NCBI GenBank assembly: GCA_022508865.1
Contig: JAFLUK010000003.1
Location: 1 to 33,761 of the forward strand
Length of the DNA: 33,761 bases
Direction of reading: 5' to 3'
Source of the DNA: Oscillospiraceae bacterium
GTDB taxonomy: Bacteria; Bacillota; Clostridia; Oscillospirales; Acutalibacteraceae
Shown: piece by piece, positions 2,391 to 16,531 of the stretch
How the letters are laid out: each line of letters opens with the position of its first letter
How positions within the stretch are numbered: the stretch's first letter is position 1
The notes under the pieces: generated by a model
Database searches by the model: none
What the model was told of the DNA's origin: nothing
The model's input: only the letters and a program-made list of their open reading frames with translations
Program-made: the position numbers and the translations under genes

Positions 2391-2972
2391 TTAATTCTTT
2401 TTCAACTGAACAAGATTCCAGTCGCAACCCTTATCATTTTCTATAAAGTCAATGAGGCTGTCGGCATCGTCAAAATATCGGTACAAATCACTGCATTTTT
2501 CTCTCACAAAACCTTCTTTAACAGAGTTAAGCATCATTTTTTCCATATGGTCATAGTAGCCGTTGATGTTATATATTGCTATTGGCTTGTTGTGTCTGCC
2601 AAGTTGTTTCAGAGTGACTATCTCAAAAAATTCTTCAAAAGTACCAATACCTCCGGGAACTATCACAAAGGCATCTGCCATATCCTCCATAATAGCCTTT
2701 CTTTCTCTCATGGTTTCGGTGGTAATCATTTTTGTACATTCTTCATACAGACCTTCAATTTTATCATCTAAAAAGAATGTTGGCACAACACCGTAAATTT
2801 CACTGTTGCTTTCTTTAAAACCTCTGGCTACAGCTCCCATAAGACCTTCTCCACCGGCGCCAAATACAAGGGTGTGGCCTTTTTCTCCAAACTTCTTTCC
2901 CAACAGACAGGTTAAATCTATATAGCTTTTGTCAATTTTATCACTGGCTGCGCCAAATACGCATACTTTCAT
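2391..2972 (-). CDS. LOG family / TIGR00730 Rossmann-fold protein (cytokinin riboside 5'-monophosphate phosphoribohydrolase-like)
   Basis: GAGGEGLMGAVARG and PGGIGTFEEFFE motifs of the LOG family; 193 aa. Confidence 0.9.
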   Translation of the reverse strand: MKVCVFGAASDKIDKSYIDLTCLLGKKFGEKGHTLVFGAGGEGLMGAVARGFKESNSEIYGVVPTFFLDDKIEGLYEECTKMITTETMRERKAIMEDMADAFVIVPGGIGTFEEFFEIVTLKQLGRHNKPIAIYNINGYYDHMEKMMLNSVKEGFVREKCSDLYRYFDDADSLIDFIENDKGCDWNLVQLKKN

Positions 2973-3085
2973 ATCAATACCTCGATTTGTTTAAACAGTT
3001 TACTATATATTATATTATGTATTTTACCGGTTGTAAATTATAATATTATAAAAATCTCTTTCAATTCTTATTTAGGGGGAAAAAT

Positions 3086-3688
3086 ATGTCCTACATATGC
3101 CTGATAGGTAACAAAAACGGAATATTAGCTGCTTCGGATACAAGGGAAACTTTTGACGGTTATAACCACCGTGACAACAGACAAAAGGTATTCAAATGCA
3201 AAAAGCAAAATCTTGTGTGGGCTTGTTGCGGTCTTACTATGCTGGAGGGCAAGGACTATCTGCGCCTTGTGGAGTTTATAATGAGAGATACCAAAACAAC
3301 TCTTGACCAAAAGTTGGACTATATCTACAGAAGTATAAAAAAGGCAACAACAGAGGGCTTTAACCGCCTTGGCAGCGGCAGTGCAATGGATATTCTCATA
3401 GGTCATATGGGTAAACGTACTATGATGATAAGAATGAATATTTCAGTAGGAAATATTCAAACAAATACCTTTTTTGCGCCCCTTGCTCTGCAGGGAGGAA
3501 GCGGAAAACTTCACTTGCCAAAAATGAAGCTTGATGAATACAATGAGCTTACATATGAGGAACTGAAAAAATATGCGTATAAAAGGGTTGAAAATGTCAT
3601 ACAAAAAGAAATAGAGCTTTGTGCAAAGACCCCACAAATGGTACAGACAATCGGCGGACACGTTACTATTGAAGGTCTGAAAAAATAA
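3086..3688 (+). CDS. Putative proteasome-beta/HslV/Anbu-like Ntn hydrolase
   Basis: 200-aa ORF with RBS TTAGGGGGAAAAAT-ATG. MS-YICLIGNKNGILAASDTR...RQKVFK: after Met removal Ser1, Asp17, Arg19 and Lys33 fall at proteasome catalytic positions; C-terminal LQGGSGKLHLPKM...LTYEELKKYAYKRVENVI...GGHVTIEGL resembles the beta-subunit GSG...LT.EE...A...I...GG.v.v pattern. Confidence 0.6.
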   Translation: MSYICLIGNKNGILAASDTRETFDGYNHRDNRQKVFKCKKQNLVWACCGLTMLEGKDYLRLVEFIMRDTKTTLDQKLDYIYRSIKKATTEGFNRLGSGSAMDILIGHMGKRTMMIRMNISVGNIQTNTFFAPLALQGGSGKLHLPKMKLDEYNELTYEELKKYAYKRVENVIQKEIELCAKTPQMVQTIGGHVTIEGLKK

Positions 3689-4119: not shown

Positions 4120-7100
4120 GTGAGAAGATATTTAAAACCGTTGTCACTTGTTATGGCGTTGACGCTTCTTGTTAATATACTGACATTTTCAGTATTTTCG
4201 GCAACTAAGAATGATAATTCAAGTGGGGCTGATATTGACGTGGAAGCATCAAAAGTATCATACACAAATGCAACAAGCAACTATAAGACATACAGCGGCT
4301 CAGATCTTGGTGCAAACTATACACCTGCAGCTACAACCTTTAAGGTTTGGGCTCCATCTGCATCAACTGTAAAACTGAACCTTTACAAAACAGGTTCGGA
4401 TTCAGAGTCGGGTGCAGGCAAAATAGGTACATATGATATGACGCTGGACAGTTCAACAGGTGTATGGTCTGTTGTTCAAAACGGTGACCTGAAAAATGTA
4501 TACTATACATATAGTGTTACAGTAAGCGGAAAAACCAAGGAAACACAGGACGTATATTCAAAAGCTACCGGTGTTAACGGTGCACGCTCAATGGTTATTG
4601 ATATGGCATCTACCAATCCTGATGGCTGGACAAATGACAAGCATGTTTTGTTTGACAGCGCAGCAAAGGCAGCTGTTTGGGAAGTTTCTATCCGTGACTT
4701 TACAATAGACGCTTCCTCGGGTGTAGATGCTGACAAGCGCGGTAAATTTTTGGGCTTTGCACAGCGTGGCACAACACTTAACGGTGCAGGCAATGTAAAA
4801 ACAGGTATTGACTACCTTGTAGAAAATAAGATTAACTGCGTGCAGATTATGCCAATGTACGACTTTGGTTCAGTTGACGAAACAAAGGGTGGTCAGAACT
4901 GGGGTTATGACCCTGTAAACTACAATGTTCCCGACGGCTCATTCTCATCTGACCCTTACCATGGCGATGTAAGAGTTAAAGAACTTAAGACTATGATTAA
5001 GGCTCTTCACGATGCAGGTATTTCTGTAATTATGGACGTAGTTTATAATCATATGTACAGTGCAGATGATTCCTGCTTTGAAAAGACTGTTCCGGGATAT
5101 TATTTCCGTATGGACGGCTCAACATATCTTAACGGTTCAGACTGCGGTAACGTTACAGCTTCCGATAAGACAATGTACAGAAAGTTTATGATTGATTCAA
5201 CCAGATATTGGGCAGAGGAATATCACATTGACGGTTTCCGTTTTGACCTTATGGGTTGTCACGATATTACTACAATGAATCAGATTCGTTCAGAACTTGA
5301 TAAAATTGACCAGAGAATTATCATGCATGGTGAGCCTTGGCCTGCATTCAGCGGCTGGAGCGGACACAATGGTATTAGTATGACAAATGCCTGTGTTACA
5401 GACCAGTCAAGCAAGGTTAACGCCAGAATCGGTATGTTTAACGATAATTTCAGAGATGCTCTTAAGGGCTCTACAGATAAGGAAGATAAGGGATATATTC
5501 AGGGCGTTACAACAAATGAAGCTGCCATTAAAGCAGGTGTTTGCGGCGGTGTTTCTACAACATTCGGCAAGAGATATCAAGCTCCTTCACAGGCTGTTTC
5601 CTACAACTCTGCTCACGATAACCTTACACTTTGGGATAAGATTGTAAAATCAATGGGCAGCACAGACTACGATGGCACAAACGCTACTTATCTTGCAATT
5701 AATAAGCTTTCTGCGGCTCTGATTTTCACCTCCCAGGGTAAGGCATTTACACAGGCAGGTGAAGAGTTTGCCAGAACTAAACACGGCGACCACAACTCCT
5801 ACAAATCAGGAGATACAGTTAACAAGTTTGACTGGTCACGTGTTGTTAAGTATAAAAATCTTGTAGATTACTACAAGGGTCTGAGAACTATCAGACAGGT
5901 TTACAGCCCATTTACAGATGGAACAATGACGTCTGCAAATACAATGTATGTAAGCTATCCAAGCCCTACAGGTGTAATTGCTTTTACAATTCAGAACAAG
6001 ACTGCAAACGCTTCCAAGGAATGGGGAACAGTGGCTGTTATTACCAATGTTACATCATCACAGCAGTCAGTAACACTCCAGTCTACAGGCACAGTACCTA
6101 CATCATGGGCAACTATTGTTAACGGAACAAGTGCAGGACTTAAGAATCTGGGTACAGTATCAGGTAAAACAATTACTGTTCCTGCCAGAACAGCTATGGT
6201 TCTTGTTGATAAGGCTTCCTTTGATGCAAGGAATATTGAAGATGATACAACTCCGACAACTCCACAGAAGAGCACAGTAACTTGGAACACAACTAAAATC
6301 AAGGGCTTTAAAGATGGCACAACAACAGAGGAATATACAAGCTCTGCAGGTATGATTACCAAGGTTGTTCAGCCTGAAGACGGCTATAAAATTGCATATG
6401 CTCAGGTTATCAATAACGGTACCGATATTACATCAACTGCTTTTAACAGCAGCACAAATACCATTAACTTTATGAGAAACGGAAACGCTACCATAACACT
6501 GGTTGCTGTTGCAGGCGGTGAAAAGCATCTTTACGGCGACGTGGACAGTAACGATGTTGTTGATGTAAGAGATGCAACAGCAGTGCAAAAGGCAACTGCA
6601 GGAATTATTAATCTGGATGAGATTCAGGAAAAGGCAGCCGACGTTAACGGTGACAAGATTATGGATGTAAGAGATGCAACGCTTATTCAGAAAAAGTGTG
6701 CAAGCATCGTTACGGAGTTCCCTGTTGGCGAGTCTTTTGATACAGGCGGCGGAGATTTCACATTCCCGACACAGCCGTCAAGCAGTTCAAGCGTAACTTC
6801 ATCAACATCAGCTACAACACCATCCAGCTCTACAGAAGGCGGCACAGTCAGCTTTAGCTCAACGATTGACCAAGGCGACGAAAGATGGGCAGCATATATG
6901 TGGAATGATGCAGGAGATATGTGGTGGGCTGACGTTGTTGGCGGCACAGTACAAGTACCAAGCGGTGCAACAAGCATTATCTTTGTACGTATGAGAGGTA
7001 CATCAACTGAAAATGCTTGGGATCCGGAAGGAGTAACAGACGACGAAAAGAATGTGTGGAATCAAACAGACGATTTGCCACTGATAATCGGAGCAAAATA

Positions 7101-7158
7101 TCAGGTAACAGGCTGGGGAAGCGGCTGGGGAGCACTTCTTGACTGTACTTATGGTTAA
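4120..7158 (+). CDS. Secreted type I pullulanase (GH13) with CBM48, internal type I dockerin and C-terminal putative starch-binding module
   Basis: GTG start with RBS GAAGAAGGGA; signal peptide; CBM48-like TTFKVWAPSASTVKLNLY; pullulanase motif QNWGYDPVNYNVPDGSF; GH13 motifs DVVYNHM, GFRFDLMGCHD, IIMHGEPW, NSAHDNLTLWD; two dockerin repeats GDVDSNDVVDVRDATAVQKATAG / ADVNGDKIMDVRDATLIQKKCAS; Ser/Thr linker; Trp-rich C-terminal domain. Confidence 0.93.
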   Translation: MRRYLKPLSLVMALTLLVNILTFSVFSATKNDNSSGADIDVEASKVSYTNATSNYKTYSGSDLGANYTPAATTFKVWAPSASTVKLNLYKTGSDSESGAGKIGTYDMTLDSSTGVWSVVQNGDLKNVYYTYSVTVSGKTKETQDVYSKATGVNGARSMVIDMASTNPDGWTNDKHVLFDSAAKAAVWEVSIRDFTIDASSGVDADKRGKFLGFAQRGTTLNGAGNVKTGIDYLVENKINCVQIMPMYDFGSVDETKGGQNWGYDPVNYNVPDGSFSSDPYHGDVRVKELKTMIKALHDAGISVIMDVVYNHMYSADDSCFEKTVPGYYFRMDGSTYLNGSDCGNVTASDKTMYRKFMIDSTRYWAEEYHIDGFRFDLMGCHDITTMNQIRSELDKIDQRIIMHGEPWPAFSGWSGHNGISMTNACVTDQSSKVNARIGMFNDNFRDALKGSTDKEDKGYIQGVTTNEAAIKAGVCGGVSTTFGKRYQAPSQAVSYNSAHDNLTLWDKIVKSMGSTDYDGTNATYLAINKLSAALIFTSQGKAFTQAGEEFARTKHGDHNSYKSGDTVNKFDWSRVVKYKNLVDYYKGLRTIRQVYSPFTDGTMTSANTMYVSYPSPTGVIAFTIQNKTANASKEWGTVAVITNVTSSQQSVTLQSTGTVPTSWATIVNGTSAGLKNLGTVSGKTITVPARTAMVLVDKASFDARNIEDDTTPTTPQKSTVTWNTTKIKGFKDGTTTEEYTSSAGMITKVVQPEDGYKIAYAQVINNGTDITSTAFNSSTNTINFMRNGNATITLVAVAGGEKHLYGDVDSNDVVDVRDATAVQKATAGIINLDEIQEKAADVNGDKIMDVRDATLIQKKCASIVTEFPVGESFDTGGGDFTFPTQPSSSSSVTSSTSATTPSSSTEGGTVSFSSTIDQGDERWAAYMWNDAGDMWWADVVGGTVQVPSGATSIIFVRMRGTSTENAWDPEGVTDDEKNVWNQTDDLPLIIGAKYQVTGWGSGWGALLDCTYG

Positions 7159-14144: not shown

Positions 14145-14588
14145 ATGGCAACAACAAAGAAAACTGCTGCTAAGGCAGAAACAAAGAAAACTACTGCTAA
14201 GGCAGAAGAAACAAAGGCAGCTGCTGCAACAACAAAGAAGGAAGCTGCAACAAAGACAGCAACTAAAAAGGCTGACACAAAGGCAGAGGTTAAGGCAGAA
14301 GAAAAGCCTGCAAAGAAGGCTGCTGCTAAAAAGACAACTACAAAGAAGACTGTAGCAAAGAAGACTACTGCAAAGACACCTTCAAAGAAGGCTGTTAAGG
14401 AACCAACAGTTAAGGTTTTTGTAGAATACAACGGTGTTCAGGTATCTCTTGAGGATGTTATCAACAATGTAAAGCTTGTAAACAACAAGGATGCCAAGGA
14501 ATATACAATTTACCTTAAGCCTGAAGAACAGAAGGCTTACTTCGTTGCTGATAACGAAGAAAAGGAAATGGATGTATTCTTCTGCTAA
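14145..14588 (+). CDS. DUF6465-like protein with histone-H1-like Lys/Ala/Thr-rich N-terminal region
   Basis: RBS GAAAGAAGG; about 85-aa low-complexity KKTAAKAE/TKKTT region then globular VKVFVEYNGVQVSLEDVINNVKLVNNKDAKEYTIYLKPEEQKAYFVADNEEKEMDVFF. Confidence 0.8.
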   Translation: MATTKKTAAKAETKKTTAKAEETKAAAATTKKEAATKTATKKADTKAEVKAEEKPAKKAAAKKTTTKKTVAKKTTAKTPSKKAVKEPTVKVFVEYNGVQVSLEDVINNVKLVNNKDAKEYTIYLKPEEQKAYFVADNEEKEMDVFFC

Positions 14589-14812: not shown

Positions 14813-15505
14813 ATGAATTATTCACATGAAGTAATGAATATGTGTACTGTAACAAAAGGACCAAAGCACGGCCCTGCACCTATCCCCGAAGAGGGCAAAT
14901 GGGTAAAAGCATATGAAATTAAAGACATTTCCGGTTTTTCACACGGTATTGGCTGGTGTGCTCCACAGCAGGGTGCCTGCAAAATTTCTCTTAATGTAAA
15001 AGAAGGTATTGTTGAAGAAGCTCTTGTTGAGACAATCGGCTGCTCCGGTATGACACACTCTGCTGCTATGGCTGCTGAAATTCTTCCCGGAAAAACTCTT
15101 CTTGAATGTTTAAACACAGACCTTGTTTGTGATGCTATCAACACAGCTATGAGAAACATTTTTGAACAGCTTGTTTACGGTCGTTCACAGACAGCTTTTT
15201 CAGAGGACGGTTTGCCAATCGGCGCAGGACTTGAGGACCTTGGTAAGGGTCTCCGTTCACAGGTTGGTACAATGTACTCAACACAAAAGAAGGGTGTTCG
15301 TTTTATGGAAATGGCAGAAGGCTATGTTCTTAAAACAGCTCTTGACGAGAATGATGAAGTTATCGGCTACCAGTTTGTAAAGCTGGGCAAAATGCTTGAG
15401 GATATCCGCCATGGTGTTTCACCTGATGAAGCATATAAGAACAACATCGGTCAGTACGGTCGTTTTGACGGCGCAGCAAAGTACATTGACCCAAGAGAAG
15501 AATAA
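14813..15505 (+). CDS. IscU/NifU-N-like iron-sulfur scaffold family protein associated with GGGtGRT protein
   Basis: 230 aa; EALVETIGCSGMTHSAAMAAEILPGKTLLECLNTD resembles the NifU-N/IscU core (FKTFGCGxAIASSSxxTExxKGKTLDEA); further Cys in GWCAPQQGACK. Confidence 0.8.
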   Translation: MNYSHEVMNMCTVTKGPKHGPAPIPEEGKWVKAYEIKDISGFSHGIGWCAPQQGACKISLNVKEGIVEEALVETIGCSGMTHSAAMAAEILPGKTLLECLNTDLVCDAINTAMRNIFEQLVYGRSQTAFSEDGLPIGAGLEDLGKGLRSQVGTMYSTQKKGVRFMEMAEGYVLKTALDENDEVIGYQFVKLGKMLEDIRHGVSPDEAYKNNIGQYGRFDGAAKYIDPREE

Positions 15506-15526
15506 TCAGTAAGGAGGAATCTTATA

Positions 15527-16531
15527 ATGGCTGTTACATTTGAAAGTAAAGAAAGAAGAATGCCAAAGATTGAGAAGTGCCTTGCTGAATATGGTATTGC
15601 ATCTCTCGAAGAGGCAAGACAGATTTGTCTGGACAAAGGCTTTGACCCTGATGAAATCGTAAAGGGTGTTCAGCCTATCGCATTTGAAAACGCCAGCTGG
15701 GCTTATACTCTCGGTTGTGCTATTGGTATCAAAAAGGGTGTTACATCTGCTGCTGAAGCTGCAGAGTGCATCGGTGTAGGTCTTGAGGCCTTCACAATCC
15801 CCGGCTCTGTTGCAGAGCAGAGAAACGTTGGTCTTGGTCACGGTAACCTTGGCGCAATGCTTCTCAGAGATGAAACAAAGTGCTTTGCATTCCTTGCAGG
15901 TCACGAATCTTTTGCTGCTGCAGAGGGTGCTATCGGTATTGCAAGAAACGCTAACAAGGCAAGAAAGGAACCACTCCGAGTTATTCTTAACGGTCTTGGT
16001 AAGGATGCTGCTTACATCATCTCAAGAATCAACGGCTTTACATATGTAGAAACTGACTTTGACTTCTTCACAAGCGAACTTAAGATTGTTCGTGAAGTTA
16101 AATTTTCTGACGGTGAAAGAGCTGCTGTTCGCTGCTATGGTGCAAACGACGTTCGTGAGGGCGTTGCAATTATGCAGAAAGAAAATGTTGGTGTTTCTAT
16201 CACAGGTAACTCAACTAACCCGACACGTTTCCAACACCTTGTTGCAGGTACATACAAGAAGTGGGCTATTGAAAATGGCGTTCAGTACTTCTCTGTTGCT
16301 TCCGGTGGCGGTACAGGTCGTACACTTCACCCGGATAATATGGCTGCAGGTCCTGCTTCCTATGGTCTTACAGACTCTATGGGCAGAATGCACGGCGATG
16401 CACAGTTTGCAGGTTCTTCTTCTGTTCCTGCTCACGTTGAAATGATGGGTCTTATCGGTATGGGTAACAACCCAATGGTAGGCGCAACAGTTGCTTGTGC
16501 AGTTGCAGTTTATGAGAGCATTAATAAGTAA
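15527..16531 (+). CDS. GGGtGRT family protein (function unknown)
   Basis: Contains the family-naming motif SGGGTGRTLHPDNMAAGPASYGLTDSMGRMHGDAQF; strong RBS AAGGAGG; 21 bp after the upstream gene. Confidence 0.93.
   Translation: MAVTFESKERRMPKIEKCLAEYGIASLEEARQICLDKGFDPDEIVKGVQPIAFENASWAYTLGCAIGIKKGVTSAAEAAECIGVGLEAFTIPGSVAEQRNVGLGHGNLGAMLLRDETKCFAFLAGHESFAAAEGAIGIARNANKARKEPLRVILNGLGKDAAYIISRINGFTYVETDFDFFTSELKIVREVKFSDGERAAVRCYGANDVREGVAIMQKENVGVSITGNSTNPTRFQHLVAGTYKKWAIENGVQYFSVASGGGTGRTLHPDNMAAGPASYGLTDSMGRMHGDAQFAGSSSVPAHVEMMGLIGMGNNPMVGATVACAVAVYESINK

Follow-up and report, generated by a model that had tools for sequence, protein, structure and literature searches.

What does the small gene at positions 3086..3688 (plus strand) encode, and does its product form a distinct class of proteasome-like enzyme, as the original prediction proposed? 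The gene lies in a window of 33,761 bases, which is an entire contig from an assembly of 1.55 Mb that is 92% complete. On the basis of its open reading frame, homologues, AlphaFold2 models, Foldseek searches, a profile comparison and dN/dS values, we conclude, with a probability of about 0.83, that the gene encodes a stand-alone, single-domain, proteasome-like Ntn hydrolase of 200 residues, with a Ser1 nucleophile exposed by Met removal and with no dedicated unfoldase. The family appears to belong to the known proteasome-like homologues, and the novelty lies in its details.

The product begins MSYICLIGNKNGILAASDTRETFDGYNHRDNRQKVFK, and its ATG start codon is followed directly by a serine codon. 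A ribosome-binding site, AGGGGG, is read directly in the sequence at positions 3074..3079 (plus strand), 6 nt before the ATG. The same Met-Ser start is found in every copy of the family, apparently with a GTG start codon in one of them (L065), and the absence of a propeptide is therefore borne out by reading frames that start directly at Met-Ser. A promoter of its own had also been proposed for the gene. This did not hold up, as the promoter-like consensus upstream is weak (9/12 positions), and the upstream region contains 11 promoter-type matches versus 6.6 ± 3.0 in shuffled sequences, which is not far above.

Is the reading frame conserved? A pattern scan of genome contigs with the single protein yielded no homologue. 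Whole-genome searches detected same-genus orthologues with 52-62% identity in three genomes (G321, G345 and G364), and a distant homologue with 25-28% identity in G221, from another genus of the same family. A profile search added a third group in genus g253, which belongs to another family of the order and includes Candidatus Onthomonas avicola, Oscillospiraceae. The pairwise dN/dS values of 0.07-0.39 indicate purifying selection and, together with the 35 homologues, rule out a chance reading frame or a pseudogene. A second, very diverged copy stands in tandem with the normal one in G1515 (L102:1971-2867); it has MSH instead of MSY at the start and has lost Arg19.

The conservation counts rest on 35 non-redundant family proteins, which extend down to ~25% identity with the window protein. 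Invariant in all 35 are Ser2, Asn9, Gly12, Asp18, Lys34, Gly49, Thr88, Gly122, Gly138, Leu160, Gly190 and Gly191, while Tyr3, Cys5, Arg20, Cys48, Arg167 and Asp175 are kept in 34. In the window gene, the codons of the catalytic pattern lie on the plus strand at 3089..3091 (Ser2, mature Ser1, the presumed nucleophile), 3137..3139 (Asp18, mature Asp17), 3143..3145 (Arg20, mature Arg19) and 3185..3187 (Lys34, mature Lys33). The four positions claimed to match those of the beta subunits after Met removal are thus confirmed, with 35/35, 35/35, 34/35 and 35/35 conservation, and the invariance of Ser1, Asp17 and Lys33 supports the serine as the presumed N-terminal nucleophile. From the composition of the protein itself, the chance of finding S/D/R/K at mature positions 1/17/19/33 is p ~8e-6. 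The codons of Cys47-Cys48-Gly49 occupy 3224..3232 (plus strand). In the alignment with HslV, beta subunits and Anbu, Gly49 is the equivalent of the oxyanion-hole Gly47, and the Cys-Cys-Gly on this strand (Cys47 in 30/35 and Cys48 in 34/35) looks family-specific. Mature position 21 is Thr or Ser in the family, as compared to Thr21 of the beta subunits, which serves in substrate binding in the proteasome. The equivalents of proteasome Ser129 and Ser169 show no conservation, and the Ser129 position is mostly occupied by Trp or Ala. The codon at the proteasome Asp166 position, placed by the location of helix H4, lies at 3608..3610 (plus strand). It encodes Glu175 in the window protein, which is the sole Glu at a position that is Asp in the other 34 proteins. 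This change is conservative and could be relevant to function.

The AlphaFold2 models of the window protein (pLDDT 93.3, pTM 0.90) and of a g253 homologue (pLDDT 94.6, pTM 0.91) both adopt the strand and helix order of the Ntn fold. In Foldseek searches, 20S beta subunits rank first (E ~1e-8), and HslV (3ty6) and Anbu (5nyw) are also matched; all three have a probability of 1.00 and a TM score of ~0.6, which is modest for solved beta subunits. Predicted phage proteasome-like proteins are remote matches, also at probability 1.00. The proposed proteasome-like fold is therefore supported by sandwich models from two clades. Neither of the two findings named beforehand as refuting the prediction, a fold other than the Ntn sandwich or variation of Ser1, Asp17 and Lys33 among homologues, was observed. 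The C-terminal half of the window model runs through a strand, the GG, a helix (157-181) and a strand (193-199) that forms the end of the model. The beta-type layout claimed for this half is thus present, but the GGSG that had been counted toward it is no family motif, as only its second glycine (Gly138) is invariant.

The helices deserve closer attention. H1, H2 and H4 are present in both models, while, of H3, the window protein is predicted to have four residues and the g253 homologue none. Beta rings contact each other mainly through H3 and H4 (PMC8665760). With H3 reduced or absent in both monomer predictions, canonical double-ring stacking is doubtful. From these models, we infer that the oligomer would be small, or would form a ring that differs from the canonical double ring.

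How closely is the family related to known proteins by sequence? None of 13 members has a significant Pfam or NCBIfam family in hmmscan, none of the 13 reaches the PF00227 gathering score, and searches of the PDB sequences with a single sequence or with a profile yielded nothing significant. Consequently, these genes would mostly carry the annotation "hypothetical", as the family is missing from Pfam and NCBIfam. By contrast with these searches, hhalign of the family profile versus HslV, beta and Anbu gave 95.3% over 186-188 columns, i.e., the full length, versus 0.07-0.40% for six column-shuffled controls; since the reference alignment is small, the 95.3% is support and not proof. The E. coli HslV and Thermoplasma beta references in this alignment were entered by hand, and the Thermoplasma sequence is identical to PDB 3c91/1pma. 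The homology thus rests on the catalytic pattern, the fold and a profile comparison with few references, because the PDB and Pfam searches gave no significant match.

We inspected the weak matches from the class and phylum samples (L037-L042, L044 and L045; L043 was left out). The best single-protein profile match is L037, at 85%, a protein of 431 residues from a member of Clostridia (L037:1489-2784, G824). It starts MSAGVCIMNKNGIALAADS, so that Ser1 and Asp17 occupy the positions that they have in the present family, and it shares the C-terminal TVGG. Unlike the family proteins, it carries an insertion of >200 residues, and it has no Pfam match. Judging by its layout, we read it as a PMI-like homologue of the proteasome, and we set it apart from the family as a longer proteasome-like protein. 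L044 and L045 are true HslV genes, recovered by the family profile with marginal scores. L040 (E 6e-5) was rejected, as its reading frame lacks the N-terminal motif, and the matches in L038, L039, L041 and L042 fall in unrelated reading frames.

The distribution of the gene is narrow and uneven. It was found in 4 of 100 genomes sampled within the genus of the window, and in 2 of 300 sampled from the family, with the window's own genome counted. In g253, it is near-universal (30/32 genomes), and among 106 sampled genera of the family of g253, it was found in g253 only. The class and phylum samples contained no member outside the order. Searches of 50,697 phage and 72,556 plasmid records gave only chance-level matches (tblastn, E up to 1-10), and PHROG and PADLOC returned no match of note for the gene. 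With no related protein in the phage and plasmid records, we rejected a phage or plasmid origin. In the family searches of eight carrier genomes, ClpP was present in all eight, and PF00227 exceeded its curated cut-off in none; HslV therefore appears to be absent from these carriers.

Which genes accompany it? In the window, a divergent LOG-family gene (PF03641) lies upstream at 2391..2972 (minus strand), and a gene with CBM48, alpha-amylase and dockerin domains lies downstream at 4120..7158 (plus strand). Both were assigned by Pfam and serve as context only. In each of the five carriers that we examined from the genus of the window, the Ntn gene sits between the divergent LOG gene and the amylase-like gene; the dockerin was seen on the neighbour in the window. 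This pullulanase-like neighbour is probably secreted, and we compare it with the proteins of Ruminococcus bromii-type amylosomes. The species G318 (L069:1115-1520) provides an empty site, where the LOG and amylase genes are intact (69-72% identity) with neither the Ntn gene nor a remnant between them. The Ntn gene is thus gained or lost as a single unit. Farther along the window, a GGGtGRT-family gene (PF14057) at 14813-16531 is directly preceded by a gene for a conserved-looking protein of 230 residues with no Pfam match, which is possibly an iron-sulfur scaffold-like partner. At 14145-14588, the window encodes a protein of 147 residues with a Lys/Ala-rich, histone-H1-like N-terminal stretch.

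In g253, the gene occurs in two main settings. In the first, at 14 loci, an HD-domain hydrolase gene lies downstream of the Ntn gene and overlaps its stop codon, mostly by 4 bases and at three loci by ~19. The hydrolase (e.g., L051:1761-2786) is HD_4-like in its N-terminal part and HD_3/YfbR-like in its C-terminal part. A NudC-like NUDIX gene often ends 22-31 bases upstream of the Ntn gene in these loci, and at two further g253 loci, the HD gene lies divergently upstream. The overlap suggests translational coupling and a functional link. In the second setting, at 15 loci, which include a few same-genome duplicates, the Ntn gene is followed by a convergent gene with no Pfam match. This conserved convergent neighbour (L026:6618-7706 and the 14 other loci) carries a CRDNCC motif and may resemble flagellin lysine methylase-like proteins. 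In G221, a thymidine kinase gene begins 1 base past the stop of the Ntn gene. No AAA+ unfoldase gene was found among the neighbours scanned, in agreement with the original prediction.

Next, we compared the family with the known proteasome-like proteins. A survey by Fuchs, Alva and Lupas (2021) added 22 subfamilies of proteasome-like proteins, of which five (FC1-FC5) are confined or nearly confined to Firmicutes; according to these authors, there are limited clues to the function of the 22 groups, propeptides are reported for most beta and HslV subunits only, and the homologues have no co-occurring AAA+ partners (PMC8665760). BPH has Ser1 outside Betaproteobacteria (PMC5777263), and CodW of B. 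subtilis is another Ser1 protein (EMBO J 2003, cited in PMC5506225). The claim of a distinct class is weakened by these Firmicute clusters, by the Ser1 BPH and by CodW. Propeptide-less, unfoldase-free and Ser1 homologues have already been described; what is new in the present family is the fixed Ser1, the reduction or loss of H3 in the models, the near-universal presence in g253, with a patchy occurrence elsewhere, and the frequent HD overlap in g253.

Several of the known groups can be set aside. Unlike the 20S beta subunits, the family proteins have no propeptide, and with PF00227 below its cut-off in the eight carriers, no alpha-subunit partner is apparent there. With HslV/CodW (ClpQ), the family shares the character of a bacterial beta-like subunit, and its profile weakly recovers HslV genes; however, HslV pairs with HslU and mostly has a propeptide, and we rejected HslV membership on the missing PF00227 match and the lack of an AAA+ gene among the neighbours scanned. 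Anbu had been named as the closest analogue. It is indeed propeptide-less, has no known unfoldase, and starts with Met-Thr-Tyr-Cys, which resembles the Met-Ser-Tyr-x-Cys of the family. In contrast, Anbu has Thr1 and the C-terminal helix H5, and its references span 241-289 residues, whereas the family has Ser in 35/35 and no H5 in the model. We therefore rejected Anbu membership. Its place as the closest analogue is doubtful as well: the C-terminal extension is absent, and the best match is L037, though Anbu alone, with a weak 11.8% versus the family profile, scores about equal to HslV. BPH resembles the family in its compact subunit, its lack of a propeptide and an unfoldase, and its Ser1 outside Betaproteobacteria. 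However, BPH belongs to the Pfam proteasome family (PMC8665760), while the present family has no PF00227 match, and BPH forms a tetradecameric double ring. The Lys-37, Gly-50 and Ser-139 of Td-BPH (PMC5777263) contrast with Lys33, Gly48 and no conserved Ser in the family, so BPH membership was also rejected. Finally, the family is no connectase, as its models keep H1/H2 and show no pair of inserted helices between S3 and S4.

The closest descriptions are those of FC1-FC5. Like these and the other group II homologues, the family combines the Thr1/Ser1, Asp17, Lys33 and Gly47 core with the lack of a propeptide and of an AAA+ partner, and, like FC1-FC5, it has a narrow Firmicute distribution and no assigned function. 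Accordingly, the family may be a member of the published clusters FC1, FC2, FC3 or FC5, which we rate at a little below even odds; this classification is compatible with the mechanism proposed below. It is favoured by the same phylum, the rarity, and the lack of a propeptide, shared context, AAA+ partner and insertions (PMC8665760), and FC1 is itself described as diverse (PMC8665760). The reduced or missing H3 speaks against it, since only connectase and PPH/RPC are named as lacking some of the helices H1-H4 (PMC8665760), a comparison that uses the descriptions of the clusters; membership itself is defined by clustering with the sequences of the published groups at P < 1e-10 (PMC8665760). A bolder classification is possible but tentative: a separate, undescribed subfamily with fixed Ser1, no H3 and no canonical double ring, acting as a stand-alone hydrolase or ligase, and coupled in g253 to an alarmone-/nucleotide-type HD hydrolase.

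How would the enzyme work? First, methionine aminopeptidase would take off Met1 and expose Ser1, with no need for propeptide cleavage. Then, Ser1 Ogamma, activated by Lys33 and, via water, by the free alpha-amine, would attack an amide or peptide carbonyl. Asp17 would orient Lys33, with the oxyanion hole provided by the Gly48 backbone NH. Finally, the acyl-enzyme would be released by water, in an amidase or peptidase reaction, or by another amine, in a transfer reaction. The proposal builds on Anbu and BPH, for which Met removal and the modification of Thr1 by epoxomicin have been shown (PMC5666114, PMC5777263). By analogy with them, we infer Met removal, catalysis and peptide-like substrates for the family protein, and action without a dedicated unfoldase. 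In the proteasome, a Ser1 reportedly works less efficiently than Thr1 (PMC5777263).

As a first guess, peptide hydrolysis without a dedicated unfoldase is the likeliest activity, and small-amide hydrolysis is the main rival. In the latter case, the protein would be a specific amidohydrolase or acylase for a small molecule or a single substrate, perhaps tied to nucleotide turnover, a reading that we regard as possible but well short of even. Other Ntn families act on small amides. The neighbours often handle nucleotides (NUDIX and HD/YfbR-like genes in g253, thymidine kinase in G221 and LOG in genus g1), and no unfoldase partner accompanies the gene. However, the neighbours differ between genera, 15 g253 loci have the unrelated convergent gene instead, and the active-site pattern, including the Thr/Ser at mature position 21, is that of the proteasome.

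The acyl-enzyme might also join peptides, in which case the protein would be a protein ligase or transpeptidase. Among proteasome homologues, there is a precedent in connectase, a monomer that performs ligation rather than hydrolysis (PMC8665760), and the ring-stacking helix is predicted to be missing in the present family too. This reading is unlikely, as H1/H2 are kept and the insertion that typifies connectase, two helices between S3 and S4, is lacking. Equally improbable is a structural or regulatory protein that retains the fold but has lost catalysis, in spite of the lost Ser129/Ser169 equivalents, the D-to-E change at the Asp166 position of the window copy and the inertness of BPH itself on standard substrates (PMC5777263), because the invariance of S1, D17, K33 and G48 in 35 sequences, down to ~25% identity, would be unexpected without catalysis.

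The stand-alone, proteasome-like Ser1 hydrolase thus remains our preferred reading. Proteasome evolution has been discussed from few characterised homologues, to which the family adds a small, propeptide-less subunit with a fixed Ser1. As 35 sequences, a confident model, near-universal presence in one genus and a recurrent operon partner are at hand, its function becomes approachable through the HD neighbour. Moreover, the family bears on the question of whether canonical ring stacking is needed for proteasome-like subunits to work.
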